Below, piece by piece: positions 3,704 through 62,939 of a DNA stretch of 64,000 nt. The notes under the pieces were generated by a model. It ran no database searches, had not been told where the DNA came from, and worked only from the letters and a program-made list of their open reading frames with translations. The DNA comes from Sphingomonadales bacterium. Lineage in GTDB: Bacteria; Pseudomonadota; Alphaproteobacteria; Sphingomonadales; Sphingomonadaceae. The first letter of the stretch is position 1, and every line of letters starts with the position of its first letter. The stretch covers positions 32,508 through 96,507 of the forward strand of contig SBGG01000040.1 of the NCBI GenBank assembly GCA_006226685.1. The letters are read 5' to 3'. The position numbers and the translations under genes are program-made.

Positions 3704-3873
3704 CTAGGGCGGATCGACATTCAGAAGATGACGAGCCGAAAATGGTGATTTTGCGTGATCCGGAGCGAAGCGTACTCAAAGTACGTGAGCACCGGAAGCG
3801 CGCGAAAGCGCCATTTGCAGGCCGCCAGGGCTGGGGCCGAAGGCGACCGGAGGGCAATGTCGATCCGCCCTAG
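3704..3873. mobile_element. MITE-like element, family A copy 1 (170 bp)
   Basis: Perfect 18-bp terminal inverted repeats CTAGGGCGGATCGACATT (3704-3721) / AATGTCGATCCGCCCTAG (3856-3873); TA at both ends; no coding capacity; homologous copies at 19948 and 42524. Confidence 0.85.
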
Positions 3874-4523
3874 CCCTGCAGGCCGCAAATCCAGCGTCCC
3901 GCATAAATACGTTGCCGCTCCTTGCCGACAGTCACCGTCAGGCTGGCAGGGTAAGAGGATTGCTGCCCCACCGGCGTCAGCGATACCCGGCTGGTGAGGC
4001 TGATATCAACCGTCACCCCTTTGCCGACAAGGCTCGTGCCCCCGGCAAGCGCGCCAAATCCACCGGCGGCGGCACTGGCCAGCCGCTCTCTCACGCCCCC
4101 ATTCGCGATCACCGCAATGGCATGGGCACCGGGATCGACATCGGCCTTGGCCACCAGAACAGGCGCGGACGCGGAAGAGGGGATGAACCCGCATCCCATT
4201 TCGCCGGACCGGTGCAATGTGCCCGCCCCGGCAATCGGATCAAGTGCAATATCCTTGCCGATAAAAGCATCCGCATCGCTGCCCCAGCCCGGAGGCTGCT
4301 CGGCAACGAGAGCCGCCTCGACATCCGCACCGGTTCCGGTAACCGCATCCACAGCATTGCGCGCATCGCCCAGCGCATTGACGACCGAGTTCTGCACCAC
4401 GTCGCCGACTTCCATCGCCTCATTGGCTGCGCTGTTCTCATCCGCCTGAATGGCGGATTCCTGCGAGCAGGCGCACAGAATGAGCACGAGGGCGGCAAAC
4501 AGAGGAGGGAAACGAACGGCCAT
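3870..4523 (-). CDS. Hypothetical lipoprotein
   Basis: N-terminal signal with lipobox-like LILCAC; Ala-rich body; stop codon lies inside the family A element end. Confidence 0.75.
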   Translation of the reverse strand: MAVRFPPLFAALVLILCACSQESAIQADENSAANEAMEVGDVVQNSVVNALGDARNAVDAVTGTGADVEAALVAEQPPGWGSDADAFIGKDIALDPIAGAGTLHRSGEMGCGFIPSSASAPVLVAKADVDPGAHAIAVIANGGVRERLASAAAGGFGALAGGTSLVGKGVTVDISLTSRVSLTPVGQQSSYPASLTVTVGKERQRIYAGRWICGLQG

Positions 4524-4583
4524 GCGCGCTTGTTGCCCTGCGCAGGATGAAGCTTCGCTGAACTTAGCGGTTCAATCCACCGC

Positions 4584-6458
4584 TCATTTGCGCCCGAACA
4601 ACTTTTCTATGTCGCCATGGGCCAGCTTCACCCAGGTTGGCCTGCCATGGTTGCACTGGCCGCTATGCGGGGTCACCTCCATCTCGCGCAGCAACGCATT
4701 CATTTCCGCTACCGAAAGCACCCGTCCGGCGCGCACCGAACCGTGACAGGCCATGGTGGCGGCGACATGATCCAGCCGTTCTTTCAGCGACAAGGCCTCG
4801 TCCGCCTCGGCCAGATCGTCGGCGAGATCGCGGACCAACCCCTCTGCATCGCCATTACCCAATAAAGCCGGAGTAGCCCGCACCAACATCGCCGACGGGC
4901 CGAAACGCTCCAGCTCCAGCCCGAATTCGCGCAACTCCCCGATACGCGTCTCCAGACGATCGCAGGCCGGTTCATCCAGTTCCACCACCACCGGCAGCAG
5001 CAAGGCCTGAGAGGCGACCCCCGCCCCGTCCAGCCCTCGACGCATCCGCTCCAGTACCAATCGCTCATGCGCGGCATGTTGATCGACGATGACAAGGCCG
5101 TCTTCCGCCTCGGCGACAATATAGGTTTTTGCCACCTGTCCGCGCGCAACCCCCAGGGGAAAATGCGCAACTTCGGGAGGTGCCTGATAGGCAACCTCCG
5201 CCCGCGCCGCGGGGACCAGAGAAGGCATTCCTTCTGCCGAAGCAATAGGACCGGCCGCCGGAGCGGAATGGAAAGTCCGCGTGGCATCGCTCACCGCCGG
5301 CCATGCCGCCGGATTGGATAGGCCGGCCCTTGCCTCGCCGTCCACATTCCCCTGCACGCCCGGCACAAAATCGAAAATCGGCGTCCGGCCGATCGGCGTG
5401 GGCGAAATGGGAGGAGCCATGGGCTCCGTCCGCCATGCCCCCATAGAGGCGGCATCTGGCCGCTGAGCCGAACGAAAACCGGCATCGTCAAGCGCACGAC
5501 GAAGCCCGTTCACCAACATGCCCCGAACCAGTGCCGGATCGCGGAAGCGCACCTCCGTCTTGGCCGGGTGGACATTCACATCGACCTCGCCCGGCGGCAC
5601 TTCGAGGAACAAAGCCAGCACCGGATGCCGGTCGCGCGCCAGCAGGTCCGCATAGGCGGCGCGGACCGCCCCCACCAGCAACCGGTCCCGCACAGGACGA
5701 CCATTGACGAACAGGTAGAAATGATCGGCCACGCCGCGGTTGAAAGTCGGCAGGCTCGCGACCCCGGCAAGGCGCAATCCCTCCCGTTCCAGCGACACGA
5801 TCACATGATTGTCGGCCAGCGCCCGGTCGATCAGCGCGGCGACGCGTTCCTCCCGCCCTTCCCCTCCCTGAAGGCCGAGCGTGCGCCGCCCGTCATGCTC
5901 CAGCGTGAAAGCGATTTCGGGATGGGCCATCGCTAGCCGCCGCACCACATCGAGCGCGGCCGCATATTCCGACCGGGGGCTGCGCAGGAACTTGCGGCGC
6001 GCGGGCACGCGCCCGAACAGATTCTCGACCCGGATGCTGGTGCCCGGCGGCATCGCGTGCGGCCCCTCGCCCTCAACCCGGCCATTATCGACCACCCGGC
6101 GCCATCCGTCACCGCCCCGCACGCGGCTTTCCATCGTCAACCGCGCAACGCTGGCGATAGAGGGCAACGCCTCGCCGCGAAAGCCGAGCGTTTCGACCGC
6201 CTCGATCCGCTCATCGGGCAGCTTCGATGTCGCATGACGTTCAAGCGCAAGCGCCATTTCGTCGGGCACCATGCCGCACCCGTCGTCAATCACCTCGATT
6301 CGGTCGAGACCGCCGCTCGCCAGCCGGATGGTGATCCTTTCCGCCCCGGCATCGATGGCGTTTTCGACCAGTTCCTTGAGGGCACTGGCGGGTCTTTCCA
6401 CCACTTCACCGGCGGCGATGCGGTTGATAAGATGTTCGGGCAGACGGCGTATTGACAT
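4584..6458 (-). CDS. mutL: DNA mismatch repair endonuclease MutL
   Basis: MSIRRLPEHLINRIAAGEVVERPASALKELVENAIDAGA, GFRGEALPSIASV, and C-terminal ACHGSVRAGRVLS...CNHGRPTWV. Confidence 0.97.
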   Translation of the reverse strand: MSIRRLPEHLINRIAAGEVVERPASALKELVENAIDAGAERITIRLASGGLDRIEVIDDGCGMVPDEMALALERHATSKLPDERIEAVETLGFRGEALPSIASVARLTMESRVRGGDGWRRVVDNGRVEGEGPHAMPPGTSIRVENLFGRVPARRKFLRSPRSEYAAALDVVRRLAMAHPEIAFTLEHDGRRTLGLQGGEGREERVAALIDRALADNHVIVSLEREGLRLAGVASLPTFNRGVADHFYLFVNGRPVRDRLLVGAVRAAYADLLARDRHPVLALFLEVPPGEVDVNVHPAKTEVRFRDPALVRGMLVNGLRRALDDAGFRSAQRPDAASMGAWRTEPMAPPISPTPIGRTPIFDFVPGVQGNVDGEARAGLSNPAAWPAVSDATRTFHSAPAAGPIASAEGMPSLVPAARAEVAYQAPPEVAHFPLGVARGQVAKTYIVAEAEDGLVIVDQHAAHERLVLERMRRGLDGAGVASQALLLPVVVELDEPACDRLETRIGELREFGLELERFGPSAMLVRATPALLGNGDAEGLVRDLADDLAEADEALSLKERLDHVAATMACHGSVRAGRVLSVAEMNALLREMEVTPHSGQCNHGRPTWVKLAHGDIEKLFGRK

Positions 6459-6543
6459 ATGCACCTGACTAGCCCAAGCGGTCGCTTTCCGCGAGCCGCG
6501 ACCGGACAATTTTTTTCCGCGAACCCGATTGTCCGTTCGGTGA

Positions 6544-7656
<1,113 letters not shown>

Positions 7657-7680
7657 CGCCGATGAAGGAGAGCTTCTGCG

Positions 7681-8583
7681 ATGGCGCGATCCTCCAGTCG
7701 CCGTCCCGGAATCAATCGACGGGCACAATATAGCCTGTTCGTCAGCTATGTGATCGCCATTGCCGGGGCCGTTACCGGTCTGCTCGCCTTGTTGCTGGCG
7801 AAGGCGGATCCGGCGGGCTTTGCAGTGCTGCGCGCGGCGGCGAGCGAGACCACCCGACCGGTTGCCGCGACGCTCAGTTCGATGGTGAGCGGTATCGGAT
7901 CGATCGACGAGCATTTCGTCGCCTATATCAACGCCGGATCGCAAAATGCGGCGCTGCGCCGTCAGGTTGAGGCGAACCGGGTGCGCGTGATCGAGGCGCA
8001 GGCGATAGAGCAGGAAAATATCCGCCTCAAGAAGCTGCTGAAGCTCACCGAATCGACGGATGCCGAAGTCGCGACGGCACGCCTCATCAGTTCCTCCTCG
8101 ACTATCAGCCGCCGGATCGCGCGGATCAACGCGGGCAGCCTGCAGGGGGTCGCGACCGGCATGCCGGTCCGCGCGCCCGAAGGGCTGATCGGCCGTGTCC
8201 TTCTTGTCGGCCCCAACAGCGCGGACGTGCTGCTGCTGACCGACAGCCAGAATATCGTTCCGGTACGCCGCGCAAGCGACAATGCGGGGGGCATTTCGAC
8301 CGGACGCGATGACGGCACGATCGAAATCAGGCCGCTCAGCGCCGGCGCCAACCCCTTTCATCCGGGTGACATCATGGTCACGACGGGGACCGGCGGCCTT
8401 TACAGCCCCAATATCCCCGTCGCCGTCGTCGTCGCCCTGCGGAACGGCACGGCGATTGGCGTACCGCTCGCCAGCCCGGCCCGGGTGGAGGCGGTAATGA
8501 TCGAACGCCCCTATGACGCCAATATCCCGCCGCCGCCTGGCGCGCCGGAGGAAGGCGACAATGGCGAGAAGCAAGGCCAATGA
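7681..8583 (+). CDS. mreC: Rod shape-determining protein MreC
   Basis: Position after mreB; coiled-coil plus RISSSSTISRRIARINAGSLQGVATGMPV...GLIGRV. Confidence 0.93.
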   Translation: MARSSSRRPGINRRAQYSLFVSYVIAIAGAVTGLLALLLAKADPAGFAVLRAAASETTRPVAATLSSMVSGIGSIDEHFVAYINAGSQNAALRRQVEANRVRVIEAQAIEQENIRLKKLLKLTESTDAEVATARLISSSSTISRRIARINAGSLQGVATGMPVRAPEGLIGRVLLVGPNSADVLLLTDSQNIVPVRRASDNAGGISTGRDDGTIEIRPLSAGANPFHPGDIMVTTGTGGLYSPNIPVAVVVALRNGTAIGVPLASPARVEAVMIERPYDANIPPPPGAPEEGDNGEKQGQ

Positions 8584-9110
8584 CCGGAGAACCGATGAAC
8601 GGCCCGGTTCCGCGCCTCGGGCGCACGCCATCGCGCTGGCGCGTGCAGGCAACCCCTATAATATGCGTGATGGCGGGATCGACCATCCCGGCCCTGTTGC
8701 CCATCATCTCCCAATCGCCGACCCTGCCGCCGTTCGGCCTCCTCATCCTGATCGGCTGGCGATTGCTGCATCATGAAATATGGCCGCTATGGATCGGCGC
8801 GCCGCTAGGCGCCTTTGACGACCTGATGAGCGGCCACCCCTTCGGCACCGCCATATTGCTCTGGTCGCTGGTAATGATGCTGATCGAAATGGCAGATTCC
8901 CGCCTGTTCTGGCGCGATTACTGGCATGACTGGCTGATCGCGATCCTCGCCTGCGCCCTGTTTCTGGGTGGAAGCCTTCTCATCACATGGGCATCGGGCA
9001 GCAAGACACCGCTGCTTCTCGTCCTTCCGCAATTGCTCTGGTCTGCATTGCTCTATCCGCTTATTGTGCGCATCATCGCCGCTGTGGACCGATGGCGCAT
9101 GATGGCATGA
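8580..9110 (+). CDS. mreD: Rod shape-determining protein MreD
   Basis: Polytopic membrane ORF overlapping the mreC stop; synteny. Start may be an internal ATG. Confidence 0.85.
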   Translation: MTGEPMNGPVPRLGRTPSRWRVQATPIICVMAGSTIPALLPIISQSPTLPPFGLLILIGWRLLHHEIWPLWIGAPLGAFDDLMSGHPFGTAILLWSLVMMLIEMADSRLFWRDYWHDWLIAILACALFLGGSLLITWASGSKTPLLLVLPQLLWSALLYPLIVRIIAAVDRWRMMA

Positions 9111-11170
9111 AATTTCCGAAACTGACCCCCAAACATGTTACCGAAGCCAGCCTGTCCTTTACCTTCACGCGCCGCGCGATGGTATTGGGCGCGTTTCAGG
9201 GCGGAATCGGTGCGCTGCTCGCCGGGAGGATGGCGTGGATCAGCGTCGCCGAGAACGAAAAATATGTGCTCGCTTCGGAAAGCAACCGGGTCAACCTCAC
9301 CCTGGTGCCGCCTCGCCGCGGCTGGATCATCGACCGGCACGGCAAGCCACTGGCGAAAAATCGCACCGATTTCCGCGTCGATATCATTCCCGATCGCCTG
9401 AAGAACAAGGAGGCGGTGATCGACACGCTGGCCCGCTTGCTGGCGCTGGAGCCGGAAGATGTCGAACGCATCCGCGAAGATCTCGACAAGGCTGCCGGTT
9501 TCCAGCCGGTACAGGTCTCCGACAAGCTGAGCTATGACCAGTTCGCGGCCGTGTCCGTCCGGCTTCCCGACCTGCCCGGTGTAGCCCCCGCTCAGGGTTT
9601 TTCGCGGGACTATCCCGCCGGTCCGACGGTCGGTCATCTGCTCGGCTATGTCGGTGTCGCCTCGGCCAAGGATTATGAGGAACGCCGCGATCCACTGCTC
9701 ATCACGCCGGGGTTCAAGATCGGCAAGGACGGGCTGGAACGCGCCTTCGAAAACCAGCTTACCGGAAAGCCCGGGGCCAAGCGGGTCGAGGTAACGGCGC
9801 GCGGCAAGATCGTGCGGGAATTGACGACGCGCCCCGACACGCCCGGCAAGACCATCCGGCTCAGCATCGACGCGGGGCTGCAGGATTATGCCGGGCGGCG
9901 GTTGGGCACGCAGAGCGGATCGGTGGTGGTGATGGACTGCCAGACCGGCGACCTGCTGGCGATGGCATCGATGCCGAGCTTCGATCCCAACAGCTTCTCC
10001 GATGGGATCAGCCATCTTGAATGGGACATGCTCAGCCAGGACGATCATGTCCCGCTGCGCAACAAGACTCTGCAAGGCCTTTACCCGCCCGGCTCCACGG
10101 TAAAGCCAATGGCCGCGCTATCCTTTCTGGAGGCCGGGCTCAGCCCGCATGACACCGTTCATTGCGGCGGCGCGATCCGGGTCGGTAACGGCCTCTTCCA
10201 CTGCTGGAAACGCGGCGGCCATGGTGCGGTCGACATGCGCCGGGGCATCGCCCAGAGTTGCGACATCTATTTTTATGTGATCGCGCAGCGTCTCGGCATG
10301 CAGGTGATCGCCGACATGGCGCGCCGCCTCGGGCTGGGTCAGAAATTCCCGTTACCCTATCCCAGCCAGAGCTATGGCACCGTGCCCGACGCGGCATGGA
10401 AGCTGAAGAAATATGGCAAGGACTGGCAGATTTACGATACGGTGAACGCCACCATCGGACAGGGCTATATGCTGGTCAACCCGACCCAGATGGCGGTGAT
10501 GGCGGCGCGTATCGCATCGGGCAAGATGCTGATGCCCACCCTGTTGTTCGATCCGAAACGCCCTGCCCCGGCCACGCTCGGCGTGGCACAGGACCATCTC
10601 GACGTGATCCATGAGGCGATGCGCGACGTGGTGAACGGCGGCGGCACCGGCGGCGCGGCACGCCTGCCGATTCCCGACATATTGATGGCGGGCAAGACCG
10701 GCACCGCACAGGTGCGGCGCATCACCATGGCCGAACGGCGCGGCGGCGTGCGCGGCAATGCCTCGCTTCCGTTCAAACTGCGCGACCATGCATTGTTTCA
10801 GGGTTTCGCGCCCTATGACAATCCACGCTATGCGATCGCAACGATCATCGAACATGGCGGCCATATTAACCGGATCGAAGACGCGCCGATGATTTCCAGC
10901 GATGTCATCAGCTATCTTTATGATCCGGTGAAAGCGATGGAACGGCTGGAAAAATATGAGGCCGGATGGGGCGGCTCGCCGGAGGCGCGGCTGAAAACGC
11001 AAATGGCCGCCTTTCGCGTTTCGAAAGGACTGGCCGAAGCGCCTCCCCCGGCCGACAATGCCAGCAATGCCAGCAATGCCGCTACCGGCAATATAACGGC
11101 AAACTCCGACACGCCGCCGGACGATGCTGCGGGCGGGGCCGCCAACGGAACAGGGGATGTCGCGGAATGA
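9107..11170 (+). CDS. mrdA: Penicillin-binding protein 2
   Basis: PPRRGWIIDRHGKPLAKN, LYPPGSTVKPMAALSFLEAG (SxxK), AGKTGTAQV (KTG); ATG at 9107 overlaps the mreD stop. Confidence 0.96.
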   Translation: MKFPKLTPKHVTEASLSFTFTRRAMVLGAFQGGIGALLAGRMAWISVAENEKYVLASESNRVNLTLVPPRRGWIIDRHGKPLAKNRTDFRVDIIPDRLKNKEAVIDTLARLLALEPEDVERIREDLDKAAGFQPVQVSDKLSYDQFAAVSVRLPDLPGVAPAQGFSRDYPAGPTVGHLLGYVGVASAKDYEERRDPLLITPGFKIGKDGLERAFENQLTGKPGAKRVEVTARGKIVRELTTRPDTPGKTIRLSIDAGLQDYAGRRLGTQSGSVVVMDCQTGDLLAMASMPSFDPNSFSDGISHLEWDMLSQDDHVPLRNKTLQGLYPPGSTVKPMAALSFLEAGLSPHDTVHCGGAIRVGNGLFHCWKRGGHGAVDMRRGIAQSCDIYFYVIAQRLGMQVIADMARRLGLGQKFPLPYPSQSYGTVPDAAWKLKKYGKDWQIYDTVNATIGQGYMLVNPTQMAVMAARIASGKMLMPTLLFDPKRPAPATLGVAQDHLDVIHEAMRDVVNGGGTGGAARLPIPDILMAGKTGTAQVRRITMAERRGGVRGNASLPFKLRDHALFQGFAPYDNPRYAIATIIEHGGHINRIEDAPMISSDVISYLYDPVKAMERLEKYEAGWGGSPEARLKTQMAAFRVSKGLAEAPPPADNASNASNAATGNITANSDTPPDDAAGGAANGTGDVAE

Positions 11171-12276
11171 GTATCGTCCCCGCCCCTATCGCGCAACTTC
11201 CGTGGAAGCTGATGCTGCTCATCACCGCGATCGCCACGTTCGGCATCGTCGTACTGTACAGTGCGGCAAGCGGCAGCATGACCCCCTGGGCCTTTAATCA
11301 ACTTATCCGTTTCGTCATATTTTCGGTGATGGCGCTCGTCCTCTCGCGCTTCCCGGTTTCCCTATTCGCCACCTGGTCCCTGCCCGCCTATGGCGCGATC
11401 CTGATCGCGCTGGTGCTGGTCGAACTGATCGGCGGCGTCGCAGGCGGCAGCCAGCGCTGGATCAACCTCGGTTTCATGCAGCTTCAGCCATCGGAATTCA
11501 TGAAACCGGTGATCGTCCTTGCGGTCGCCCGTTTCTACTCCCGCCTGCCGGTCAGCGAAATTCGCCGATGGAACGCGATATGGCCCGCGCTGGTGCTGAT
11601 CGGCCTGCCCTGGTCGCTGGTGATCCTGCAACCCGATCTCGGCACGGCGACGATGATCGCGGCGGGGGGCGTCACCGTGATGTTCCTTGCCGGCCTGCCC
11701 CTGCGCCTGTTCATCGGCGCGGGATTGATCGGGGGTGCCGCCATCCCGATCGCCTTCAGCTTCCTTCACGATTATCAGCAAAAACGCGTGCTGATCTTCC
11801 TCAACCCCGAAAGCGATCCGCTGGGCGCGGGCTATCATATCAGCCAGTCGAAAATCGCCATCGGGTCGGGCGGTCTGTGGGGCAAGGGGTTCCTTCAGGG
11901 CACGCAGAGCCATCTCGATTATCTTCCGGAAGGCCATACCGATTTCGTCTTCGCCACCATGGCGGAAGAATGGGGCATGGTCGGCGGCATATCGCTGATC
12001 TTCGCGTTCCTGATGCTGTTCCGCTGGGGCATAAGAGTGTCGATCCGCGCGCAGGATCGTTTTTCCCGGCTCGTCGCGGCGGGCCTCACCACGACCATCT
12101 TCTTCTATGTCGCGATCAACCTGATGATGGTGATGGGCCTTGCCCCGGTGGTGGGCATTCCGCTGCCCTTCATGTCCTATGGCGGGTCCTCTATGCTGAC
12201 GGTGATGCTGTGCATCGGCATCATCATGGCAATCGACCGGGACCGCAGGAAGAGCAGCCGAAGTAACTGGGAATAA
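11167..12276 (+). CDS. rodA: Rod shape-determining protein RodA
   Basis: Polytopic SEDS protein; GGSQRWINLGFMQLQPSEFMKP, GHTDFVFATMAEEWGMVGG, PFMSYGGSSML. Confidence 0.96.
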   Translation: MSIVPAPIAQLPWKLMLLITAIATFGIVVLYSAASGSMTPWAFNQLIRFVIFSVMALVLSRFPVSLFATWSLPAYGAILIALVLVELIGGVAGGSQRWINLGFMQLQPSEFMKPVIVLAVARFYSRLPVSEIRRWNAIWPALVLIGLPWSLVILQPDLGTATMIAAGGVTVMFLAGLPLRLFIGAGLIGGAAIPIAFSFLHDYQQKRVLIFLNPESDPLGAGYHISQSKIAIGSGGLWGKGFLQGTQSHLDYLPEGHTDFVFATMAEEWGMVGGISLIFAFLMLFRWGIRVSIRAQDRFSRLVAAGLTTTIFFYVAINLMMVMGLAPVVGIPLPFMSYGGSSMLTVMLCIGIIMAIDRDRRKSSRSNWE

Positions 12277-12279
12277 GCC

Positions 12280-13161: not shown

Positions 13162-13251
13162 TAGAGAATATCTATCAACCATGACGCGGTTCGATTTGAC
13201 CCGGCAGCCTGCCCGGCGCATTATCCCGCCTTCATTGTGCAGGATAAATCG

Positions 13252-19707: not shown

Positions 19708-19950
19708 ATGAGTTTGCTCACACGCATCGGATTACTCGCCGGGGTCGGCGCGACGCTTTATGCGTTGCTGCGTAAAGGCGGCGGCTGCTCCACCGCGAAG
19801 GAGGAAACCGCCGCCCCGGTCTATTCCTCCGGCGTGATGCGAAATGCGGGGCCTGAAGAACAGCGCGATTCCGACGGGCAGCCATGGGACAAGGTCGACG
19901 AACAGGTCGATGAATCCTTCCCTGCCAGCGATCCGCCCTCCAATTATTAG
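19708..19950 (+). CDS. Small hypothetical protein with DESFPASDPPS C-terminal motif
   Basis: 80-aa ORF with good RBS (aaggaggctaaa); N-terminal hydrophobic segment; stop codon at the start of the family A copy 2 element. Confidence 0.7.
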   Translation: MSLLTRIGLLAGVGATLYALLRKGGGCSTAKEETAAPVYSSGVMRNAGPEEQRDSDGQPWDKVDEQVDESFPASDPPSNY

Positions 19951-20084
19951 GACGGATCGACATTCAGATGATGGCGAGCCGAAAATGGTGATTTTCCGTG
20001 AACCGGCGCGCAGCGTACTTCTTGTACCTGAGCACCGGAAGCGTGGGGAAGCGCCATGTACATGGAAAGCCTGTAGCGCCAAAA
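19948..20084. mobile_element. MITE-like element, family A copy 2 (left end present, right TIR not found)
   Basis: TAGGACGGATCGACATTCAGATGATGGCGAGCCGAAAATGGTGATTTTCCGTGA...GCGTACTTCTTGTACCTGAGCACCGGAAGCG...GCGCCAT aligns by eye to copies at 3704 and 42524; 3' limit approximate. Confidence 0.7.
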
Positions 20085-20286
20085 ACAGACTCGGAAGGAC
20101 AATGAACGCCGGGCGTACCGCCCGCTTCCACCTTCGCTCATCGTAGAGACACATGCGCCTCGGGGCATTTCGAGTCGAGAAAAACGGCGCCACGCGCACC
20201 GAAACGCAGCCTGCTCAGGAAAGTCAGGCGCCGGAAGCGCAAAACCACCATGAGCAGGATGCCGACGCCGCAGGCGGCCAGAACAT

Positions 20287-26752: not shown

Positions 26753-27655
26753 ATGCGCCTCGACGACGAACAGGAAAGCAGCAATTACGAGATTCAGACC
26801 GGTCGTTCCGGCGGGATTGGCGGCGGCCTCGGCGGCGGCAATCTGCTCGGCATGTTGCTGCCGCTCGTCGGGTCCAGATTCGGATGCGGCGGAATCGCCG
26901 TCGTCCTCATCCTGATGGCGGTAATGGGCGGCGGGCTCAATCTGGGATCGCTCACCGGGCTTCAGGATGGCGGTGTCACTCCTCACCAGCAAAGCCAGAG
27001 CCCTGCCGGATCGACAGAGCTCACCGATATTCAGCGCATCTCGCTCAAGGTATTGGGATCGACCGAGCGGCGCTGGCAGGAGATTTTCGCGGCGGAGGGC
27101 CAGACCTACCCACCGCCCACGCTGGTCTTCTACAGCCGCAACGGCATGTCGGGATGTGGGGCGGCGCAATCGGCCATGGGACCATTCTACTGCCCGGCGG
27201 ATCGGAAAATCTATCTCGACACCGACTTTTTCAATGAAATGAAAACCCGGTTCAACGCACCGGGTGATTTCCCGATCGGCTATATCATTGCCCATGAGGT
27301 CGGCCACCATATCCAGACGGTCACCGGCCTCTCCGACAAGGTCCGCAAGGCGCAGCAGCGTGCCAGCGAGGCCGAAGGCAATACATTGCAGGTCCGCATG
27401 GAGTTGCAGGCGGATTGCTATGCCGGCGTCTGGGCGGCCCGCGACCAAAATTTGATGGAACCAGGCGATCTGGAGGAAGGCATGCGCGCGGCCCATGCGA
27501 TCGGCGATGATACGCTGATGCAGCAGGCGGGACGTGCGCCGGTCGAGAGCATGTTCACCCATGGCTCCTCCGAACAGCGTATGCGATGGCTGAAAAAGGG
27601 ACTGGATACGGGCAATCCGGCCGCCTGCGACACTTTCGCGGCAAGCACCATCTGA
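26753..27655 (+). CDS. Neutral zinc metallopeptidase (YpfJ family)
   Basis: MRLDDEQESSNYEIQTGRSGG, AIIGYIIAHEVGHHIQ (HEVGHH), LQADCYAGVWA. Confidence 0.93.
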   Translation: MRLDDEQESSNYEIQTGRSGGIGGGLGGGNLLGMLLPLVGSRFGCGGIAVVLILMAVMGGGLNLGSLTGLQDGGVTPHQQSQSPAGSTELTDIQRISLKVLGSTERRWQEIFAAEGQTYPPPTLVFYSRNGMSGCGAAQSAMGPFYCPADRKIYLDTDFFNEMKTRFNAPGDFPIGYIIAHEVGHHIQTVTGLSDKVRKAQQRASEAEGNTLQVRMELQADCYAGVWAARDQNLMEPGDLEEGMRAAHAIGDDTLMQQAGRAPVESMFTHGSSEQRMRWLKKGLDTGNPAACDTFAASTI

Positions 27656-27679: not shown

Positions 27680-27739
27680 CTAGGGTCAGGATCGCCATTT
27701 GGACGCCTCAACGGCGCCAATAACGGGTCCTGACCCTAA
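27680..27739. mobile_element. MITE-like element, family B minimal copy (about 60 bp)
   Basis: CTAGGGTCAGGATC...GGTCCTGACCCTAA inverted ends with TA; its reverse complement aligns with the left end of the 61720 element. Confidence 0.7.
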
Positions 27740-42180: not shown

Positions 42181-42460
42181 GGTGAGCGCAACGACGTCAC
42201 CCGGATCGGCGCGCTTCTCGCCGGACTGCGTGCGAACCACATTCTGACCGACAAAGGTCAGGATGGACAACGCGCCATGGGTGCGATCGCCGCTGCGGGC
42301 GCAAAGCCGGTCGTCCTGCAACGGAGGTTACCGCCAGCTGATCGAACGCTTATTCAGCAAGATCAAACGCTTCAGGAGAAGCGCCATTCGATACGACAAA
42401 CTCGCCAGAAACTACGCCGGCTTCCTCAATCTCGTCGCGGCTCTCAAATGCTGCCTGTGA
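42181..42460 (+). pseudogene. Relic of an IS5-family DDE transposase (C-terminal part, frameshifted and internally deleted)
   Basis: GERNDVTRIGALLAGLRANHILTDKGQDGQRAMGAI in one frame, then YRQLIERLFSKIKRFRRSAIRYDKLARNYAGFLNLVAALKCCL* in another. Confidence 0.82.
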
Positions 42461-42473
42461 ATGTAAACGCCAC

Positions 42474-42520
42474 CCAGGGTCAGGACCCATTGCAGGCGAC
42501 CAGAGGTCAATGTCGATCCG
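42474..42520. repeat. Decayed family B element end abutting a family A right-end-like fragment
   Basis: CAGGGTCAGGACCCATTGCAGGCG followed by GTCAATGTCGATCCGACCC. Confidence 0.5.
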
Positions 42521-42523
42521 ACC

Positions 42524-42692
42524 CAGGGCCGATCGACATTCAAATGATGACGTTGCGAAAATGGCGGATTTTCGTGACTGGGAGCGCAGCGTACTAAAGG
42601 TACGTGAGCACCGGAAGTGCGGAAAGCTGCCATTTGCAGACCGTCAGGGCTGGGGTCGAAGGCGACCGGAGGGCAATGTCGATCCGCCCTAG
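42524..42692. mobile_element. MITE-like element, family A copy 3
   Basis: Left CAGGGCCGATCGACATT (degenerate) and right AATGTCGATCCGCCCTAG (identical 18 nt to copy 1); interior aligns along its length with copy 1. Confidence 0.85.
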
Positions 42693-43504
42693 GACGCCAG
42701 CTTCTCCAGCTCGACACCCCGATCCCGCGCGGCCCGCAACGTATCGAGCAGCAGCCGCTCAAGCCGCCGCTCCTCATCGAGTATATTCAATCCCTCGCGG
42801 GTCATTCCGCCCTTGCTCGCGACCTTTTCGGCCAGCACGCCAGGGGCATCCACGGCATTTTTCGCAAGCGCCGCCGCGCCGTCCACCATGGCAATAGCGA
42901 AACGTTGCGCCTGCGCCGGTTCCAGCCCCAGCTCGGCCGCCCCCTGCGCGAGCGCATCGATGAAACGAAACAGAAAAGCCGGACCGCAACCGGTCAGCGC
43001 GGTCACAAGATTATATTGCCCTTCATCAGCGATCCATTCGGCCAGCCCCAACGGCGCCAGCAGCCGATCAGCAAGCTGCCGTCGCATCTCGCTCATCGAC
43101 GAATCGGCGTAAAGAGCACACACACCTTTGCCCAGTGCAACCGGGGTATTGGGCATCACCCGAATGGTCTGGCTGCGTGGTACCCCCGCCTCCTCCAGCC
43201 TGCCGACCGACACCCCGGCCAGCAGGGACAACAGGGTCAGGTCCTCACGCCAGCGCGTCTTGAGTTCAGGCGCTACGCTACCCAATTGCTGCGGTTTCAT
43301 GCCAAGGAGGACCAGCGCCTGCTCGGGGAGACTGTCGGGAAAGGATGTGATCACCGCAATCCCCTCGCCCACCGCCTTCCCGCTTGGGCGCAAAACAGTC
43401 ACAAGCGAGGGATCAAGGCCGCATTCCAGCCAACGGGATAGCATCGCTCCGGCCATCGTTCCGCACCCGATCAGAAACAGCGGACGGTCAAACCGGTCAA
43501 GCAT
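42689..43504 (-). CDS. proC: Pyrroline-5-carboxylate reductase
   Basis: LIGCGTMAGAMLSRWLE, LLGMKPQQL, VMPNTPVALGKG, ALTGCGPAFLFRFIDAL; stop codon lies in family A copy 3 terminus. Confidence 0.95.
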   Translation of the reverse strand: MLDRFDRPLFLIGCGTMAGAMLSRWLECGLDPSLVTVLRPSGKAVGEGIAVITSFPDSLPEQALVLLGMKPQQLGSVAPELKTRWREDLTLLSLLAGVSVGRLEEAGVPRSQTIRVMPNTPVALGKGVCALYADSSMSEMRRQLADRLLAPLGLAEWIADEGQYNLVTALTGCGPAFLFRFIDALAQGAAELGLEPAQAQRFAIAMVDGAAALAKNAVDAPGVLAEKVASKGGMTREGLNILDEERRLERLLLDTLRAARDRGVELEKLAS

Positions 43505-43561
43505 CGTCAGTCCTTCGCTCATGAACATCCATCACCATATGCAGCGCGGGATTCGCTATCC

Positions 43562-44492: not shown

Positions 44493-44522
44493 GACAGCCT
44501 CAAATACCGGATGAATACCCGC

Positions 44523-50516: not shown

Positions 50517-50555
50517 GTCGCAGCCTTGCTCCGTGATTGAGGTCAGGACTTAATC

Positions 50556-50604
50556 AGGGTCAGGCACCATAGCTGGCGCCATTGAGATGTCCGGCCAATG
50601 ATCG
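50556..50604. repeat. Decayed family B element end
   Basis: AGGGTCAGGCACCATAGCTGGCGCCATTGAGATGTCC resembles the 61720 left end GGGTCAGGCCCCATTGCTGACACCGTTGAGGCGTCC. Confidence 0.6.
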
Positions 50605-51970: not shown

Positions 51971-52062
51971 TATCCCATTCCCGCAACAGTGAATTGCTAT
52001 AGCTTGCCTTTATTGCAAATCACGAAGTTTCGTAAAGACGCCTCCAAAGGAGAAACTGCATC

Positions 52063-53175: not shown

Positions 53176-53206
53176 ACCGGAATTCCGAACCCGAAGGAGA
53201 AATTGC

Positions 53207-53605: not shown

Positions 53606-53620
53606 GGATGTGAGGGACTG

Positions 53621-54475: not shown

Positions 54476-54570
54476 CATTCCCGTTTCGCATACTCTGGTC
54501 GCGCGGCGGATTGCCTTTGCCCCGCGACCGCCTATTCTCTCCCGGCCGATGAAAATGCCGGGAGAGCCTC

Positions 54571-55461: not shown

Positions 55462-55597
55462 AAGCAAGGCGTTGACAATTTCCGGGCCATAAGGCGGATG
55501 ATCCCACGGCCCGGAAACAAAAACCAAAACCGGACGAGCGCCGTTTTCCCGGAAACTGGGAAGTACCCCCTTCCTCTCACGCTCAGTCGCCCTGCCT

Positions 55598-56128
55598 TCA
55601 ATCGACCCGCTTCAGCCCCTTGGCAAAGGCGGCGGCCTTTTCGGCATAATGGTCGGCGGACCGGCGCAGGGCCTCGACCGCCGCCTCATCAAGCGAGCGA
55701 ACCGCCTTGGCCGGAACCCCGACGATAAGACTGCCCGGTTCGAAGGTCTTGCCTTCGGTCACCAGCGCGCCCGCGCCGACGATGCAGTTTTCCGGAATAA
55801 CCGCGCGATTGAGGATCGTCGCCCCCATGCCGATCAGGCTGTTATCGCCAATGGTGCAACCGTGCAGCATCACATGATGGCCGACCGTCACCCCCTCGCC
55901 CACGGTGCAGGGGATATCCGTGTCGCTATGCATCACCACCTGCTCCTGAATATTACTGCGCGCGCCAATGATGATCGGCGTATTGTCGGCCCGGACAACC
56001 ACGCCGAACCAGATACTGGCCGCGCTACCGAGCCGGACATCGCCAATGAGATCGGCCGACGGCGCCACCCATGCCGACCCATCAACGGGCAATGACGGCG
56101 ACTGGCCGTTAAATTCATATAAGGGCAT
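55598..56128 (-). CDS. Gamma-carbonic-anhydrase-like hexapeptide-repeat protein
   Basis: ADLIGDVRLGSAASIWFGVVVRADNTPIIIGARSNIQEQVVMHSD...TVGHHVMLHGCTIGDNSLIGMGA. Confidence 0.92.
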   Translation of the reverse strand: MPLYEFNGQSPSLPVDGSAWVAPSADLIGDVRLGSAASIWFGVVVRADNTPIIIGARSNIQEQVVMHSDTDIPCTVGEGVTVGHHVMLHGCTIGDNSLIGMGATILNRAVIPENCIVGAGALVTEGKTFEPGSLIVGVPAKAVRSLDEAAVEALRRSADHYAEKAAAFAKGLKRVD

Positions 56129-56251
56129 TCCAATCCTCTCCCGCAAACAGGGGCAAGGATCAGGACTGTAATGGAAACAGAGAAAATCCGCATCCCCTGA
56201 TGCGCGGGAGCAATGAATGCTCCCACGCTTCCGGCCCCATGCAAGCGGTAA

Positions 56252-56923
56252 TCAGAAGCGGAAGAGCATTCCTCCCTGAACGGCCGTCGGATTCAACGTC
56301 ACATCCGCCGTCAACGGCGCACCGCCATAGACGCCGGAACCATCGGTTTTCATCCAGGCATAGGAAATGCTCGCATAAATACCGATATGGGAATCCAGCA
56401 TATATTCGGCGCCCCCCTGCACCATCGGCCCCCAGCTTCCATCGACATTCAGGTTGGAAACCGCCGCATCCTTTTCCTTGAAGCTTACGAAATGGGCGAC
56501 CCCTGCCCCCACAAAGGGCTGGAATGGGCTGGACTGATTCAGATGATATTTGGCCAGCACCCCGCCAAGTCCATAGCGGACGGAACCAAGCTTGCCGACC
56601 GGATCCAATATCCCCCTGCCATCGACATCCGTCGTGGGCGGAATGCCGAGAGTCAGCGTAAGCGACACCTCCGGAACGACATAGACCTCCGCTTCGAACG
56701 ACAGCGTCAGCCCGTCGCTCGCATGCAGATTAGCGCCCGGAAGATCCGTGCCCAGCACCTTGAATTTGGCCGAGGAATCAAACAAAATGCCGACTGGCCC
56801 GGTGCGCACGCTTATATCGCCCGCTTTCGGGCGATAGTCTTCGGCCAATGCCGGGGAAGCCATGGCGGAAACCACCATGGCGACAGCGATAAAAATTCTG
56901 TTTTTTTGTTTAGGCGGCGACCA
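56252..56923 (-). CDS. OmpW-family outer membrane protein
   Basis: Signal peptide ASPALAE; AEVYVVPEVSLTLTLGIPPTTDV...FQPFVGAGVAH...AEYMLDSHIGIYASISYAWMKT...FRF C-terminus. Confidence 0.88.
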   Translation of the reverse strand, partial: WSPPKQKNRIFIAVAMVVSAMASPALAEDYRPKAGDISVRTGPVGILFDSSAKFKVLGTDLPGANLHASDGLTLSFEAEVYVVPEVSLTLTLGIPPTTDVDGRGILDPVGKLGSVRYGLGGVLAKYHLNQSSPFQPFVGAGVAHFVSFKEKDAAVSNLNVDGSWGPMVQGGAEYMLDSHIGIYASISYAWMKTDGSGVYGGAPLTADVTLNPTAVQGGMLFRF

Positions 56924-57956
56924 CATTTTTCTTTTCTCTCTCATGATAAGACAGGTTTTTTATAGGAAATTTCTTCTCCATCCAGCCGCACAATATGTCG
57001 GAAACAGCCTTGTCGACCAGAAGGTCGAAATGGCCGCATTGTCCGATCGGCGGCATATCCGCATGTGGGGCAACAACATCCAGCGCCTCCCGATAACGCG
57101 ACTGGTCGAAACACTCGTCGGTTTCGCCAGCCAGCAATAAAACCGGCTTCGCAGGCATAATCGGTTCGGCATCGGGGATCCATCGCCCCGCCCCAAAGGC
57201 CATCATCGTGTTGAACGACCAGTGTCGTACGAACCGGGGATCATGCGGGGCTGCGTCGAGATCGAAATCGACCACTGTCATATTGTTGAACCAGCGCACA
57301 CCGAAAAGATTGGCGAGAACCAACGCCTTCATCCGCATCGCGCGCAGACGGGTCCAGCCACCGAAATACGGACGCACCGTCGGGGATCCCAGCCCCAGAT
57401 AAGGGGCAAGAAAGACATAGCCGTCGACCAGTTCCCGCGCCTCGCTGCGGGAAAGGCCGAGAACCACGCCGCCGCCCGCCGAGTGACCGCCAAGCACGAT
57501 CCGGTCATCGGGCCGCTCTTCGCGCAGCTTCGCCAGAAAACGGCCCACATCAGCAATGATCTGGCCCGGATCGGACACCGCATGTCCCTTGTCGCCACCG
57601 GTCAGGCCATGACCGCGCATGTTGAGCGTATAAACACGCGCCTTGCCGGAACCGGAAACGGCCGAAGCGATAGAATGGAGCTGATCGCCAAAGCATCCTG
57701 CCCCGTGAATGAGCACCAGATGCACGTCCGACGCCGCCTCATAACGGCGAAACCCCAGCGCCATCCCGTCCCCCATATCGAGAAACCGCGCCCTCGGCAG
57801 GCCATCGTCACGGATTTCGGGCAGACGATCGAAGGCCGTCGCAGGAAAAGGGCGACGGCCCGATCGCGTAAAATGTCTCAGGGCGCGTTCGTAGACAAAC
57901 AGAGTCCGCCACTCCACGCCCGGAGCATGATCCATGCTGACAGATTTACGCGACAT
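56910..57956 (-). CDS. Alpha/beta hydrolase (lysophospholipase-like)
   Basis: LVLIHGAGCFGDQLHSIA, NMRGHGLTGGDKGHAV, LGGHSAGGGVVLG nucleophile elbow. Confidence 0.88.
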   Translation of the reverse strand: MSRKSVSMDHAPGVEWRTLFVYERALRHFTRSGRRPFPATAFDRLPEIRDDGLPRARFLDMGDGMALGFRRYEAASDVHLVLIHGAGCFGDQLHSIASAVSGSGKARVYTLNMRGHGLTGGDKGHAVSDPGQIIADVGRFLAKLREERPDDRIVLGGHSAGGGVVLGLSRSEARELVDGYVFLAPYLGLGSPTVRPYFGGWTRLRAMRMKALVLANLFGVRWFNNMTVVDFDLDAAPHDPRFVRHWSFNTMMAFGAGRWIPDAEPIMPAKPVLLLAGETDECFDQSRYREALDVVAPHADMPPIGQCGHFDLLVDKAVSDILCGWMEKKFPIKNLSYHEREKKNVVAA

Positions 57957-57981
57957 AACGCAAATCTATCGCATAAACTGG

Positions 57982-58824
57982 TTAAGCCTTTGTTCCCGAT
58001 ACGACGACGATGCTGAGCGCTGCGGCAAAACGATCATTTTCGGCCCGGACCTTCAGGTCGTCGCCCCATTTCGCCGCCCGCTCCTCGGACACCAGTCCGC
58101 CCGAAACAGCCATTTTCACCACCAGAGACAGGTCGAGCACCTTCGACACCGCCTTAATGTCCGAAGACGTCAGAGTCTGGATCGAACAGCGCACATCCTT
58201 AAGCCCATGGTCACGCATCATCGTCCACAGGTCGCGCGGCAGATAAGGCATCACGCAGCTATTGGCGATCTCGTTCACCAGCAACCGGGTCGTCCCGTAA
58301 TCGTCGCTGGCGACCCAGAAGCCGTGCATATCCGGTTCGCTCAGCACGATCCGCCCCCCCGGCCTGGTAACCCGAATGAATTCGGCCAGCGTCGCTTCCG
58401 GGTTCTGAACATGGATCAGCACGCGGTCCGCGCGAATGGCGTCCAGCTCATTGTCGGGCAGGCCGAGCCCTTCCGACGACGCCTGGAGGAAGCTGACATT
58501 CCCTTTATCGGCATGGCGCTTCTGCGCCTCGGCGATCATCGCGCTACTAAGGTCAAGGCCAATAGCCTGGCCAGAAGGTCCCACCAGATCGGCAAGACTG
58601 CTCACATCCTCACCGGTGCCGCAGCCGACATCGGCCACCCGCGCACCGGACGCGATATTCATGAGGTCGAACGTGAATTTCTTATAAGCCCGGAACACAT
58701 CCAGGGCGTGCATTTCATCCAGACGCTCGATGAAATCATTGGCATCCGTCTTGTCGACGGCCGAAAATGCGCCAAGCTGGCGATCCAAAACTGGCTGATC
58801 CTTGTCGCTCACTATCACCCTCAT
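57982..58824 (-). CDS. Class I SAM-dependent methyltransferase
   Basis: GARVADVGCGTGEDVSSLADLVGPSGQAIGLDLSSAMIAEAQKR...DAIRADRVLIHVQNPEATLAEFIRVTRPGGRIVLSEPD. Confidence 0.92.
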   Translation of the reverse strand: MRVIVSDKDQPVLDRQLGAFSAVDKTDANDFIERLDEMHALDVFRAYKKFTFDLMNIASGARVADVGCGTGEDVSSLADLVGPSGQAIGLDLSSAMIAEAQKRHADKGNVSFLQASSEGLGLPDNELDAIRADRVLIHVQNPEATLAEFIRVTRPGGRIVLSEPDMHGFWVASDDYGTTRLLVNEIANSCVMPYLPRDLWTMMRDHGLKDVRCSIQTLTSSDIKAVSKVLDLSLVVKMAVSGGLVSEERAAKWGDDLKVRAENDRFAAALSIVVVSGTKA

Positions 58825-58989
58825 CTATGCAATATCCCGACCCGAAATGGCACCACGAAGGGTGCCGCATGGCGTAATGCCAGCAGGATCACTCCCCCAT
58901 GAATCGTTAAGTATGTTTGTGCAGACGTGGGTAACCCAAAACCATTCGGGATCAATCGCCTTAACCAATTGGGCCGCCCCCCGGTGCCC

Positions 58990-59079
58990 ATCGGCCACCT
59001 GCGTCCCCGGCCCCAACACCCTGTAAATGGCGGCTCTTCCTATGCCCCAGGTCAGACATACTGTCCCAAAATGACGCAT
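58990..59079 (-). pseudogene. Possible relic of a serine recombinase/resolvase C-terminal HTH
   Basis: FGTVCLTWGIGRAAIYRVLG resembles the resolvase ...LGIGRATVYRVLG helix-turn-helix; no intact catalytic domain nearby. Confidence 0.35.
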
Positions 59080-59232
59080 GCAGATATTTCAGGGCGTGTT
59101 CGCGCCTACGTTACGCCATCTTCTGAACGGCAGTTCGGTCCGCGAGCCCAATGCAAAGCCTGCCTCCTCCATGAGGCGCATGGCACGCGCGGAGGAGCGC
59201 AAAAGCAATATGCCGACCGTATCGCAGCCGAC

Positions 59233-60180
59233 TCAGTTACCGATGGCCGCGGGATCGCTCCACCATGTCAGCGTGTGTACATCATGGGCGGTCGTCCACA
59301 CGCCCTCCGGCGTATAGCGCAGGGCACCGCTGCCCGACGCTTTGCCGACGCGCGCGCGAACCTCCATCGAGACCGGATCGATCACGGCAAAGGTCTGCCC
59401 CAGGGTCGTGCGCAACCATATCTTGCCGCCCCCGGTATCGATATCCCCATAGACAAGGCTTTCATCGACCTTGACGCGCCCTGATATATCCCCGGTCGCA
59501 GGGTCTACCCGGACCACCGTGCCGTCCCCCTGTTCCTGAACCCAGACCGCGCCTTCGCCCGCAGCCAGGAAACCCGGCTGCCGCCCCAGTTTCGTCCTTG
59601 CAACGACAACATTGGTTTCCGGATCGACTTTCTGAAGCGTTTGCCGGGAAGCACTGACCACCCAGAGCGACCCGAAACCAAAGGCCAGATAGCTGCTACC
59701 CGGATCAACCCGAACCGAGGCGATCACGCGATTGGAGGCGGGATCGACCCGGGCCACCACACCTTCAGCATCGCTCGCCACCCAGACGTAACCGGCCCCG
59801 GCCACAACATTCAGTTCCCCATCGGGACTGGCGATGCCGGTCGGGATGGCAGCGACCTTCCGGGCCGTTTCCACATCAATCCGGTTAAGCGTCCGATCCT
59901 CGCAATCAGCCACCCACAAAGCCCCCGCAGCCATGGCCATCGTCCCGCAAGGGTGAGTCATGGCGACTTCGGCAAGCTTGCCCTGTTTCGACCAGCGCTC
60001 GACTCTTCCCGCATTGGTCGTCCAGACGGAATCCCGATCGACCGTAAGGAAGTCCGCAAACCCCGGAACCTCTAGCACCAGTTCGCTTTCCGCAGCCACT
60101 GCCGGGAAGACCATGCCACCACTTCCGATCATCATGGCCGCGATGGCCGCAACAACCCGTTTCCTGCTTCCCATGTTCAC
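59233..60180 (-). CDS. Secreted beta-propeller protein (Vgb/YVTN-like)
   Basis: Signal peptide; repeated GYVWVASDAEGVVARVDPASNRVIASV / GSLWVVSASRQTLQKVDPETNVVVARTKLG blades. Confidence 0.85.
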   Translation of the reverse strand: MNMGSRKRVVAAIAAMMIGSGGMVFPAVAAESELVLEVPGFADFLTVDRDSVWTTNAGRVERWSKQGKLAEVAMTHPCGTMAMAAGALWVADCEDRTLNRIDVETARKVAAIPTGIASPDGELNVVAGAGYVWVASDAEGVVARVDPASNRVIASVRVDPGSSYLAFGFGSLWVVSASRQTLQKVDPETNVVVARTKLGRQPGFLAAGEGAVWVQEQGDGTVVRVDPATGDISGRVKVDESLVYGDIDTGGGKIWLRTTLGQTFAVIDPVSMEVRARVGKASGSGALRYTPEGVWTTAHDVHTLTWWSDPAAIGN

Positions 60181-60260
60181 GAAGCACTTCCCTCTTTAAT
60201 TTCCAAGCTGAGCTGACCCGGGCTGTTCCAGCCCATTTCCCCGAATGAAGCCCGATTGCA

Positions 60261-61142
60261 TCAGCCCGCTGTGGAAGTGGACTCGGCCCGTTTCGCGTTG
60301 AAGCGCTCGATCAGCGGCAAGAAGGGAAACAGGAACTGCTCCTTGATCGACAGCCGACGGCGCTCGTCCTGACCCACAATCTCCGACTCCCCTTCGCGAT
60401 AGGTTCCGAAGATACGGTCGAGCAGGATGAACGAGTTCGCATAGTTGCAGCGCGTCGAGTCATAATCCACCGAATGATGCAGGCTGTGGTGCCGGATCGT
60501 CGTGAAGAAAAACGCATACCAGCGAGGCGGATCCAGACGCGTATTGGCGTGAGCGAAGGACGAAATCACATGCAATATGTTCGCCCCGCAGAATATCGCG
60601 GCATCCTGGAGATCGAACAGCGCGACCACGCTGAGGCTGATCAGGAAGAGTTCCAGCGGGTTGCCGATCGCGCCCTTCATTGCATTCAGCTGAGTGACAT
60701 GATGATGCGGGGCATGGGTGGACCAGAAGAAGCTGTTATTATGCATCAACCGGTGCATCCAATATTGCCCGAATTCGATCAGGAAAATGACCAGCGCGAC
60801 CTGCGCAAGGAAAGGCATGTGCATCGCCCATTGGGTGGTGATGCCGAGCGACTGCTTGACCGCGAGCAACGGATCTTCGGCCAGATGCGTCGTGACCCAG
60901 CCGATCACGGTCGTGTTGAAGATCACATAAAAGAGGTCGGTCGCAAATTCGCGCTTGTTTATCCGCCAGCTTGCATAGCGTTCGGCGATCAGTTCAAGCC
61001 CCTGTATCGACGCCGTGATAAGCGCCCCGACAATAACGATGGTCCACGGACTCTTCACCCAGGCTTCGGGGGCGGACATCCAGAATATTATGAGCGCCAC
61101 GACGATCGCGGGCTGCACTAGACTGAACATGGCTTTCTTCAT
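60261..61142 (-). CDS. Sterol desaturase / fatty acid hydroxylase family protein
   Basis: EFGQYWMHRLMHNNSFFWSTHAPHHHVTQLNAMKG and RHHSLHHSVDYDSTRCNY histidine boxes. Confidence 0.93.
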   Translation of the reverse strand: MKKAMFSLVQPAIVVALIIFWMSAPEAWVKSPWTIVIVGALITASIQGLELIAERYASWRINKREFATDLFYVIFNTTVIGWVTTHLAEDPLLAVKQSLGITTQWAMHMPFLAQVALVIFLIEFGQYWMHRLMHNNSFFWSTHAPHHHVTQLNAMKGAIGNPLELFLISLSVVALFDLQDAAIFCGANILHVISSFAHANTRLDPPRWYAFFFTTIRHHSLHHSVDYDSTRCNYANSFILLDRIFGTYREGESEIVGQDERRRLSIKEQFLFPFLPLIERFNAKRAESTSTAG

Positions 61143-61719
61143 GGCATTCTTACCCTCGTCATGTGATTTCGAAAGAAGAGCGGCGAACGATTGGCAAGGC
61201 GTTTAGGCTGCGGGCCATCGGATACCGGCTTTGCCAACCGCACCTCATGCCCATGATCTTCACAGGCAAGGCGCCCCGGATTTCGACACATCACACCAGA
61301 TCGGCCCAGCGCCGATGAAGTTCATCCTGCCTGTCGATACGAATGCGGCCAACTCAGCCATAGGCGTCTCCCTATGGCCACATCATGCGGGGAGGCATGG
61401 ACGGAACAAGTGTACAAATGACGTAGGATTGCCTCTCCCCTACCTTCGGCGGTTTCAGGGGGAAGATGCACCCGTTTGATCATCGTCGCGCCGCGAACAA
61501 TCGCCGACGCACCGAGCACGGCCTTGAAGGCCGGAAGGTCCCTGATTGCAGAGCTGGGGCGCTGGACCGGATCAGCGTTTACCGCGCTATCCGGTCCGGG
61601 GAATAATCCATTTTACCGAATAATCATTTCGGGCAGGCAGAGTTTTCACCGCGCACGCCGTGCACAAGGCGAATGCCCTGCCTTTCAGGGAGCCCGCAAA
61701 CTCGTCCTCAGGTCAGGCT

Positions 61720-61941
61720 CTAGGGTCAGGCCCCATTGCTGACACCGTTGAGGCGTCCAGATAGCGATCCTATCGGGCCATATTGCCCGCCAGGAAGGCT
61801 GGTTGCCTTTCCAGGGACAATTTGGTTCCAGAGGGAAGCCATCTGGACGTCCCGGAGGGATTTGACCAGAATGGCCCGGCGCTGCGTTGAGCCATTTTGC
61901 TTCAAACCTCAATGGTGCCAGTAAGTGAGTCCTGACCCTAG
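61720..61941. mobile_element. MITE-like element, family B (222 bp)
   Basis: CTAGGGTCAGG...(GT)CCTGACCCTAG inverted ends with TA at each side; no coding capacity; homologous end at 27680-27739. Confidence 0.78.
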
Positions 61942-62939
61942 CCCCGCACCACGCATCGGAAACCAATATGGCTGGTCGAACTGTCGATCGGCTGACCCTG
62001 CCGCGCAGCGGGACGGTATCTCTGGCAATAATTTTCCGCGCAAAGATGCGATCCCCCCTTGGTGACCCGGCGCGGAATTCTGGAATCGGGCATGCACGGG
62101 TCGAAACTCTCCCGCATCACCCCGCCGCGCGGGTTCGCGACCGTACAACAGGCGTCAGGCTTTCGTTTCTCGACAGCCTTGGGCATCGCATACCAATCGC
62201 CCGTCCATTCCCAGACATTACCGATCATGTCATAGAGGCCATAATCATTGGCCGGATAGCTGCGAACGGGACTCGTTCGTTCCCATCCGTCTTCCCGCGT
62301 ATTTTCGTGCGGAAAGGCGCCCTGCCAATAATTGGCGAGCATCTTTCCGTCCGGGGCCAGTTCATCCCCCCACTGATATTCGCGGCCTTCATGCCCGCCG
62401 CGGGCGGCAAATTCCCACTCCGCTTCGGTCGGCAGGCTCTTCCCTATCCATTTCGCATAGGCTTCCGCATCGGCATAGCTCACCTGCGTTACCGGATGAT
62501 CTTCCAGACCGGCGAGGGAACTGCCCTCCCCCAGCGGGTGACGCCAGTCCGCGCCGAAAACAAATTGCCACCACTGGCTCCAGTTGTTCAACGGAACCGA
62601 ATGAGCCGGGCTGACAAAAACAAGCGAGCCGGGCTTTGCCATCTCCGGGTCCATACCGGGATAATCCTTCGGATCAGGTGCTATCTCCGCAAGGGTCACA
62701 TGACCGGTTGCCTCGATGAATTCAGCGAACTGCCTGTTGGTGACAGGCGTTTCATCGATCCAGAACGGATCCACCTTCACCCGCCGCAAAGGCCGTTCTT
62801 CCGGATAAAATGCCTCGGATCCCATGGTGAACACACCACCGGTCAAATGGATCATCCCCTCCGTCGAGGCGCGCTTTTTCTTGAATCTGGTTGCCATCGG
62901 GTCAGTTTGGCAGACTTTCATAAAAGCCTGCAATGCCAA
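61938..62939 (-). CDS. Formylglycine-generating enzyme (SUMF1 family); start may be internal
   Basis: GGVFTMGSEAFYPEERPLRRVKVDPFWIDETPVTNRQFAEF...VTKGGSHLCAENYCQRYRPAARQGQPIDSSTSHIGFRC; stop codon lies in the family B element terminus. Confidence 0.93.
   Translation of the reverse strand: MALQAFMKVCQTDPMATRFKKKRASTEGMIHLTGGVFTMGSEAFYPEERPLRRVKVDPFWIDETPVTNRQFAEFIEATGHVTLAEIAPDPKDYPGMDPEMAKPGSLVFVSPAHSVPLNNWSQWWQFVFGADWRHPLGEGSSLAGLEDHPVTQVSYADAEAYAKWIGKSLPTEAEWEFAARGGHEGREYQWGDELAPDGKMLANYWQGAFPHENTREDGWERTSPVRSYPANDYGLYDMIGNVWEWTGDWYAMPKAVEKRKPDACCTVANPRGGVMRESFDPCMPDSRIPRRVTKGGSHLCAENYCQRYRPAARQGQPIDSSTSHIGFRCVVRG

Follow-up and report, generated by a model that had tools for sequence, protein, structure and literature searches.

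Small repeats that supply stop codons without truncating genes, and IS5-type elements that target CTAG or YTAA, are already known. In Streptococcus pneumoniae, 36 copies of the BOX repeat provide a gene's stop codon without clear truncation, and pneumococcal repeats are enriched between convergent genes (PMC3049150). The two families described here, A and B, resemble BOX in both respects, but BOX is an unrelated repeat, and the available part of that account holds no target-motif explanation, matched-site comparison or double docking. Amongst IS5-family elements, MITEPsy1 and IS5-group elements (PMC3189936) and ISMysh01 (PMC9241763) are MITEs or insertion sequences found at CTAG or YTAA; MITEPsy1 and ISMysh01 duplicate four bases whereas A and B duplicate TA alone, and stop-codon docking is not reported in the available portions of these accounts. 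The IS427 group in Paracoccus (IS1248, ISPaes1 and ISPpa6) consists of elements of 832-865 bp, mostly with a DR of 2 bp, that carry two overlapping ORFs with a frameshift motif (PMC3281130). The full-length partners of A and B are alike in size (about 834-853 bp, one 877 bp), in their two ORFs with DUF4096 and DDE_Tnp_1, which overlap in the family B partner, in their 2-bp duplication and in their short inverted repeats; the IS427-group description, in its accessible part, mentions neither CTAG, nor stop codons, nor MITE derivatives of the group (PMC3281130). ERIC/RU, RUP and Correia MITEs are small, TA-flanked, mostly intergenic hairpin elements, but RUP is tied to IS630-Spn1, unlike the IS5-type A and B, and RU insertions often extend or fuse genes whereas A and B preserve the stop (PMC2229807, PMC2759123). 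The Caulobacter CIR repeats, abundant intergenic hairpins in alphaproteobacteria, are set apart from A and B by the part of their description available, which gives them GANTC sites and no typical inverted repeats (PMC2229807).

The window (the whole 64,000-nucleotide stretch of DNA analysed here) holds five recognisable copies (Table 1). The first-pass annotation had described four of them as docked, with a terminal TAG that is the stop codon of the adjacent gene, and all four dockings are exact to the base. It had placed the fifth, the short family B copy, 25 bp after a TGA; this copy is indeed undocked, its left TA at 27681 lying 25 bp past the TGA of ORF 26753..27655, which ends at 27655. 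Taking a per-insertion chance of ~0.16 (2 x the per-end 0.081), at least four docked copies out of five has a probability of ~0.003. The empty site of copy 1 reads CCGTCC[TA]GCCCTG in the window sequence, a CTAG, so the lipoprotein stop was already TAG before the insertion. The empty sites of the longer and the short family B copies read GGCTC[TA]GCCCC (CTAG) and GAGC[TA]AGGA (CTAA), respectively. No recognisable right end of copy 2 was found in the window sequence, and the empty site of copy 3 is unreadable because this copy lies within a tandem of element relics. Within the tandem, an IS5-like transposase C-terminus at 42263-42460 (PF01609, E=3.5e-4, below Pfam's own cut-off) is followed by an end like that of family A, GGGTGGCGTTTACATT, and then by a family B-like end at 42475 and a family A-like right end reaching about 42522, the latter two linked via CCCAGGG.

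Table 1 Element copies and relics in the window, with the stop codons on which they are docked.
Feature	Coordinates	Strand	Element and TA duplications	Docking
Family A copy 1	3705..3872	.	164-bp MITE 3707-3870, both ends perfect; TA 3705-3706 and 3871-3872	CTA 3870-3872 = TAG stop of lipoprotein ORF 3870..4523 (minus)
Family A copy 2	19948..20116	+	degraded	TAG 19948-19950 = stop of 80-aa ORF 19708..19950 (+)
Family B short copy	27681..27738	.	54 bp 27683-27736 between TA duplications	
Relics beside copy 3	42263..42522	+	tandem	
Family A copy 3	42524..42691	.	164 bp at 42526-42689; right TA 42690-42691	CTA 42689-42691 = stop of proC (42689..43528, minus)
Family B copy	61721..61940	.	216-bp MITE 61723-61938; TA 61721-61722 and 61939-61940	CTA 61938-61940 = stop of formylglycine-enzyme-like gene 61938..62939 (minus)

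Both families are short, non-coding, bounded by inverted repeats and present in many copies, as MITEs are. The ends of family A read TA|GGGCGGATCGACATT and those of family B TA|GGGTCAGGACCC; family A copies are 142 or 164 bp long, and family B copies reach 266 bp, with shorter forms besides. The host genome (3.57 Mb) contains roughly 45 A and 60 B copies. Few or no copies of either were found in the 20 relatives searched, so the expansion is confined to the host species or to close relatives of it. Family A ends are widespread among alphaproteobacteria, and a search of 301 genomes of the order showed family B ends in 34. Many host contigs break off within a family A or B copy, some 77-95 bp from its edge, so the assembly is broken up largely by these elements, and full-length IS copies appear collapsed in it.

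Almost all two-ended insertions (77/81) lie at YTAR, with 39 at CTAG, 32 at CTAA/TTAG, 6 at TTAA and 4 elsewhere, giving a preference order of CTAG>CTAR>TTAA; a weak G at -4 and C at +5 surround the insertion site. The left junction is YTA|G and the right junction C|TAR even where the outer bases differ. Since the junctions keep YTAG and CTAR although the flanking four-mers are unlike at the two ends, TA alone is duplicated, and a four-base YTAR duplication as in IS5 is ruled out. Because the element begins with G, reading into it from the flank gives YTAG at every junction. The TA duplication and CTAG-type target proposed by the first-pass annotation thus hold, the target being refined to YTAR with CTAG as the best site. 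Its statement that CTAG is largely confined within genes to stop codons is not supported: the CTAG positions in the sample counted comprise 64 in gene interiors, 80 in intergenic DNA and 16 at stops.

The transposases found between the same ends indicate the origin of the two families. For family B, eight pairs of ends spaced 838-881 bp apart were found in other genomes, and one of them (L369) carries an ORF matching DUF4096 (PF13340) and, overlapping it, an ORF matching DDE_Tnp_1 (PF01609). For family A there is one 853-bp version, in Rhizobium rhizogenes (L239), with two ORFs of the same kind and a far end that has 3 mismatches to the family A end; ORF1 of the A partner and that of the B partner are 35% identical. 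Fragments of transposase also occur in the host genome, immediately inside B ends at the contig edges C85, C66, C83 and C40 and within a decayed copy at C107, and the full-length-type end C40:129 is itself docked. No family A partner was found in the host genome beyond relics. The first-pass annotation had called the elements IS630-type. The TA duplication fits IS630 and Tc1-mariner too and is not diagnostic, since a 2-bp duplication is also given for the IS427 group (PMC3281130, in its available part). Between A or B ends, however, we found no DDE_3-type transposase, the transposases there being DDE_Tnp_1 with DUF4096, and the host genome yields a single DDE_3 match, a fragment at C92. The ends thus match autonomous insertion sequences with an IS5-type transposase, which rules out an IS630 origin, and families A and B are classed as non-autonomous IS5-family MITEs that most resemble the IS427 group. 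Their description as two unrelated families is not supported either: because they are alike in target, duplication and transposase type, they do not constitute independent evidence.

To count docking genome-wide, as the first-pass annotation had proposed, we called genes with a home-made codon-usage model trained on the host genome, and scored unoccupied YTAR sites, drawn from ~1.14 Mb around the host copies, with the same gene finder as the element ends. Docking was seen at 28 of the 113 non-coding ends in the host genome versus 63 of 967 end-views of unoccupied YTAR (OR 4.7, p=1.5e-8). Expected counts were then weighted by motif, as the YTAR motifs differ in preference; with this weighting and stricter end calling, 23/100 host ends were docked versus 8.1 expected (2.8-fold, p=4e-6). 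In other alphaproteobacteria, where loci were located by end sequence alone, the counts were 47/105 versus 12.0 for family A (3.9-fold, p=1e-17) and 20/89 versus 8.1 for family B (2.5-fold, p=1e-4). All these p-values treat ends as independent, whereas the ends of one insertion and the copies in one genome are only partly so. The excess at stops over matched sites is thereby confirmed. Amongst two-ended insertions, 35/74 are docked. No docking bias was seen between family A end types (CAG versus GCC ends, 9/27 versus 4/11).

We consider that YTAR targeting and TAG regeneration by IS5-family MITEs, followed by purifying selection, very probably explain docking. As the junction sequences show, the transposase inserts A and B at YTAR, preferentially CTAG, and duplicates TA. 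With a G after TA at each end, the junctions read YTAG into the element from either side, and where TA forms the first two bases of TAG or TAA, the reading frame survives and still closes on TAG at its former position. Since the site is palindromic and the two ends are symmetric, two convergent genes can both keep their stops in this way. Three insertions, L218, L232 and L276, are indeed docked on two convergent genes at once, the stops of both having lain in one YTAR; in the same sample, 3/58 unoccupied plus-strand CTAG stops are common to two convergent genes. The motif further tilts landing to intergenic DNA and stops, because any YTAR read in frame 0 gives a stop codon and gene interiors hold few YTAR sites. 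Purifying selection would then clear insertions within genes, near-upstream of starts and between closely spaced genes of an operon, so that stops and 3' ends come out enriched. Consistent with this, about 40-47% of weighted target sites are inside genes versus 3-5% of element ends, and ends <=60 bp upstream of a start have an O/E of 0.2-0.6. A convergent neighbour is commoner beside docked genes than beside the other genes that end in YTAR (25:15 versus 48:85, p=0.004, counts in which each of the three double dockings appears twice, once per side). All 15 co-directional docked insertions lie in gaps of at least 54 bp, while gaps <=30 bp make up 40% of the background. Such a pattern, with few insertions in genes, 5' flanks and operon gaps and a convergent preference, is that expected of purifying selection. 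The docked share is alike in perfect and decayed host ends, and filtering over time thus lacks direct support from this comparison.

The 'safe landing' put forward by the first-pass annotation stands in part, as an outcome of motif, terminal G and selection. An evolved device for safe landing, built from the target motif and the terminal base and with insertion perhaps biased to stops beyond the motif, is in our view unlikely. Active targeting, in which the transposase or a process coupled to termination of transcription or translation steers elements to stops or 3' ends beyond YTAR, also seems unlikely, although several observations favour it. Of the ends that lie 0-150 bp 3' of genes, 23/52 in the host fall on the stop versus 32% expected (p=0.04), 47/69 versus 42% for family A elsewhere (p=1e-5) and 20/35 versus 38% for family B elsewhere (p=0.02), so that in all three sets there is a per-site excess exactly at stops over the 1-150 bp downstream. 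This excess is modest and not fully explained, as a smooth 3'-end gradient does not predict it; targeting, or better tolerance exactly at the stop, may contribute. The similar docked share of perfect and decayed copies and the weak G at -4 and C at +5 point the same way. However, about three quarters of host ends are undocked, and the depletions and convergent preference are what selection gives. Residual excess aside, we found no evidence that the elements recognise stop codons.

Retention of docked elements as hairpin 3' UTR terminators or stabilisers of the host gene is quite unlikely. Both families fold far better than shuffled sequences (z = -4.5 and -8.7), as such a role would have it, but MITEs are built from inverted repeats, and the folding is a consequence of that.

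It is very unlikely that the elements hit gene interiors and that their TAG ends now close shortened frames, even though TA followed by G reads as TAG in one frame out of three wherever an element inserts. The pre-insertion codon of the 35 docked two-ended insertions was TAG in 26 cases and TAA in 8, the exception being a TAT (Tyr) at L348, which is what truncation would give. Orthologue ends were read from matched relatives about 75-80% identical, too distant to give exact empty-site DNA. All 24 orthologues in the genus of the gene docked at C26:150 end on the same residue. The orthologues of the GlnD-like, aldolase, ThuA-like and transpeptidase docked genes end within a few residues, and most other docked genes are 0-5 residues from orthologue ends. 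With an ancestral stop in 34/35 cases and matching orthologue ends, the genes were not truncated, in agreement with the first-pass annotation, and truncation as a general cause is ruled out. On the other side, the AsnC-like gene at C28 stops 3-8 residues before its orthologues and the formylglycine-enzyme-like gene ~7 residues before two orthologue ends. Taken together, these docked genes, AsnC-like (C28:55770, L083) and formylglycine-enzyme-like (window 61938), are 3-9 residues shorter than their orthologues. In these two genes the stop was possibly created slightly upstream, and the AsnC-like gene is the clearest candidate for loss of residues. Finally, chance, helped by counting too many small or spurious frames as genes, can practically be dismissed: at a third of random junctions TAG is in frame with some open frame, but one gene finder scored the background sites and the element ends alike, most docked genes are long and score strongly as coding, and p ranges from 1e-4 to 1e-17 with non-independence left uncorrected.

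In the literature searched, which leaves most subscription journals outside, we found no earlier report of stop-codon docking by IS5/IS427 or CTAG elements, nor of the combination of a TA duplication and terminal G that remakes TAG at YTAR, a matched-site test and double docking. Docking offers a concrete, testable reason for the high copy number of some transposable elements in compact genomes, because reading frames seldom contain the motif other than at their stops, where the element end puts the stop back. Docked elements are also a natural example of insertions without protein change, and if the reading as an evolved safe-landing device is true, every stop-codon hit, on one or both strands, becomes a silent insertion. 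For annotation, where such an element borders a gene with TAG, the gene in most cases really ends there.

A and B copies also abut with one common TA, at 15/137 TA ends in the host genome (for example C2:23302, C18:10294, C18:97462, C66:75119 and C101:9062), the CTAG remade at one element end being a target for the next insertion. Shared 12-18 bp flanks (C1/C105 and C29/C56) had suggested recombination between copies, which we rejected because the match stops there. The host further contains about nine 12-bp remnants, TA|GGGTCAGGACCC|TA or near that, amongst them C18:10293-10308 (L074), C40:3717-3732 (L091), C32:5271-5286 (L087), C101:9048-9063 (L137), C36:17487-17516 (L089), C18:97462 (L075), C91:5219 (L133) and C43:120 (L093). 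They match the product of a family B deletion between internal and terminal GACCC and resemble nearly precise excision by slippage, and two or more of them are themselves docked on stops.
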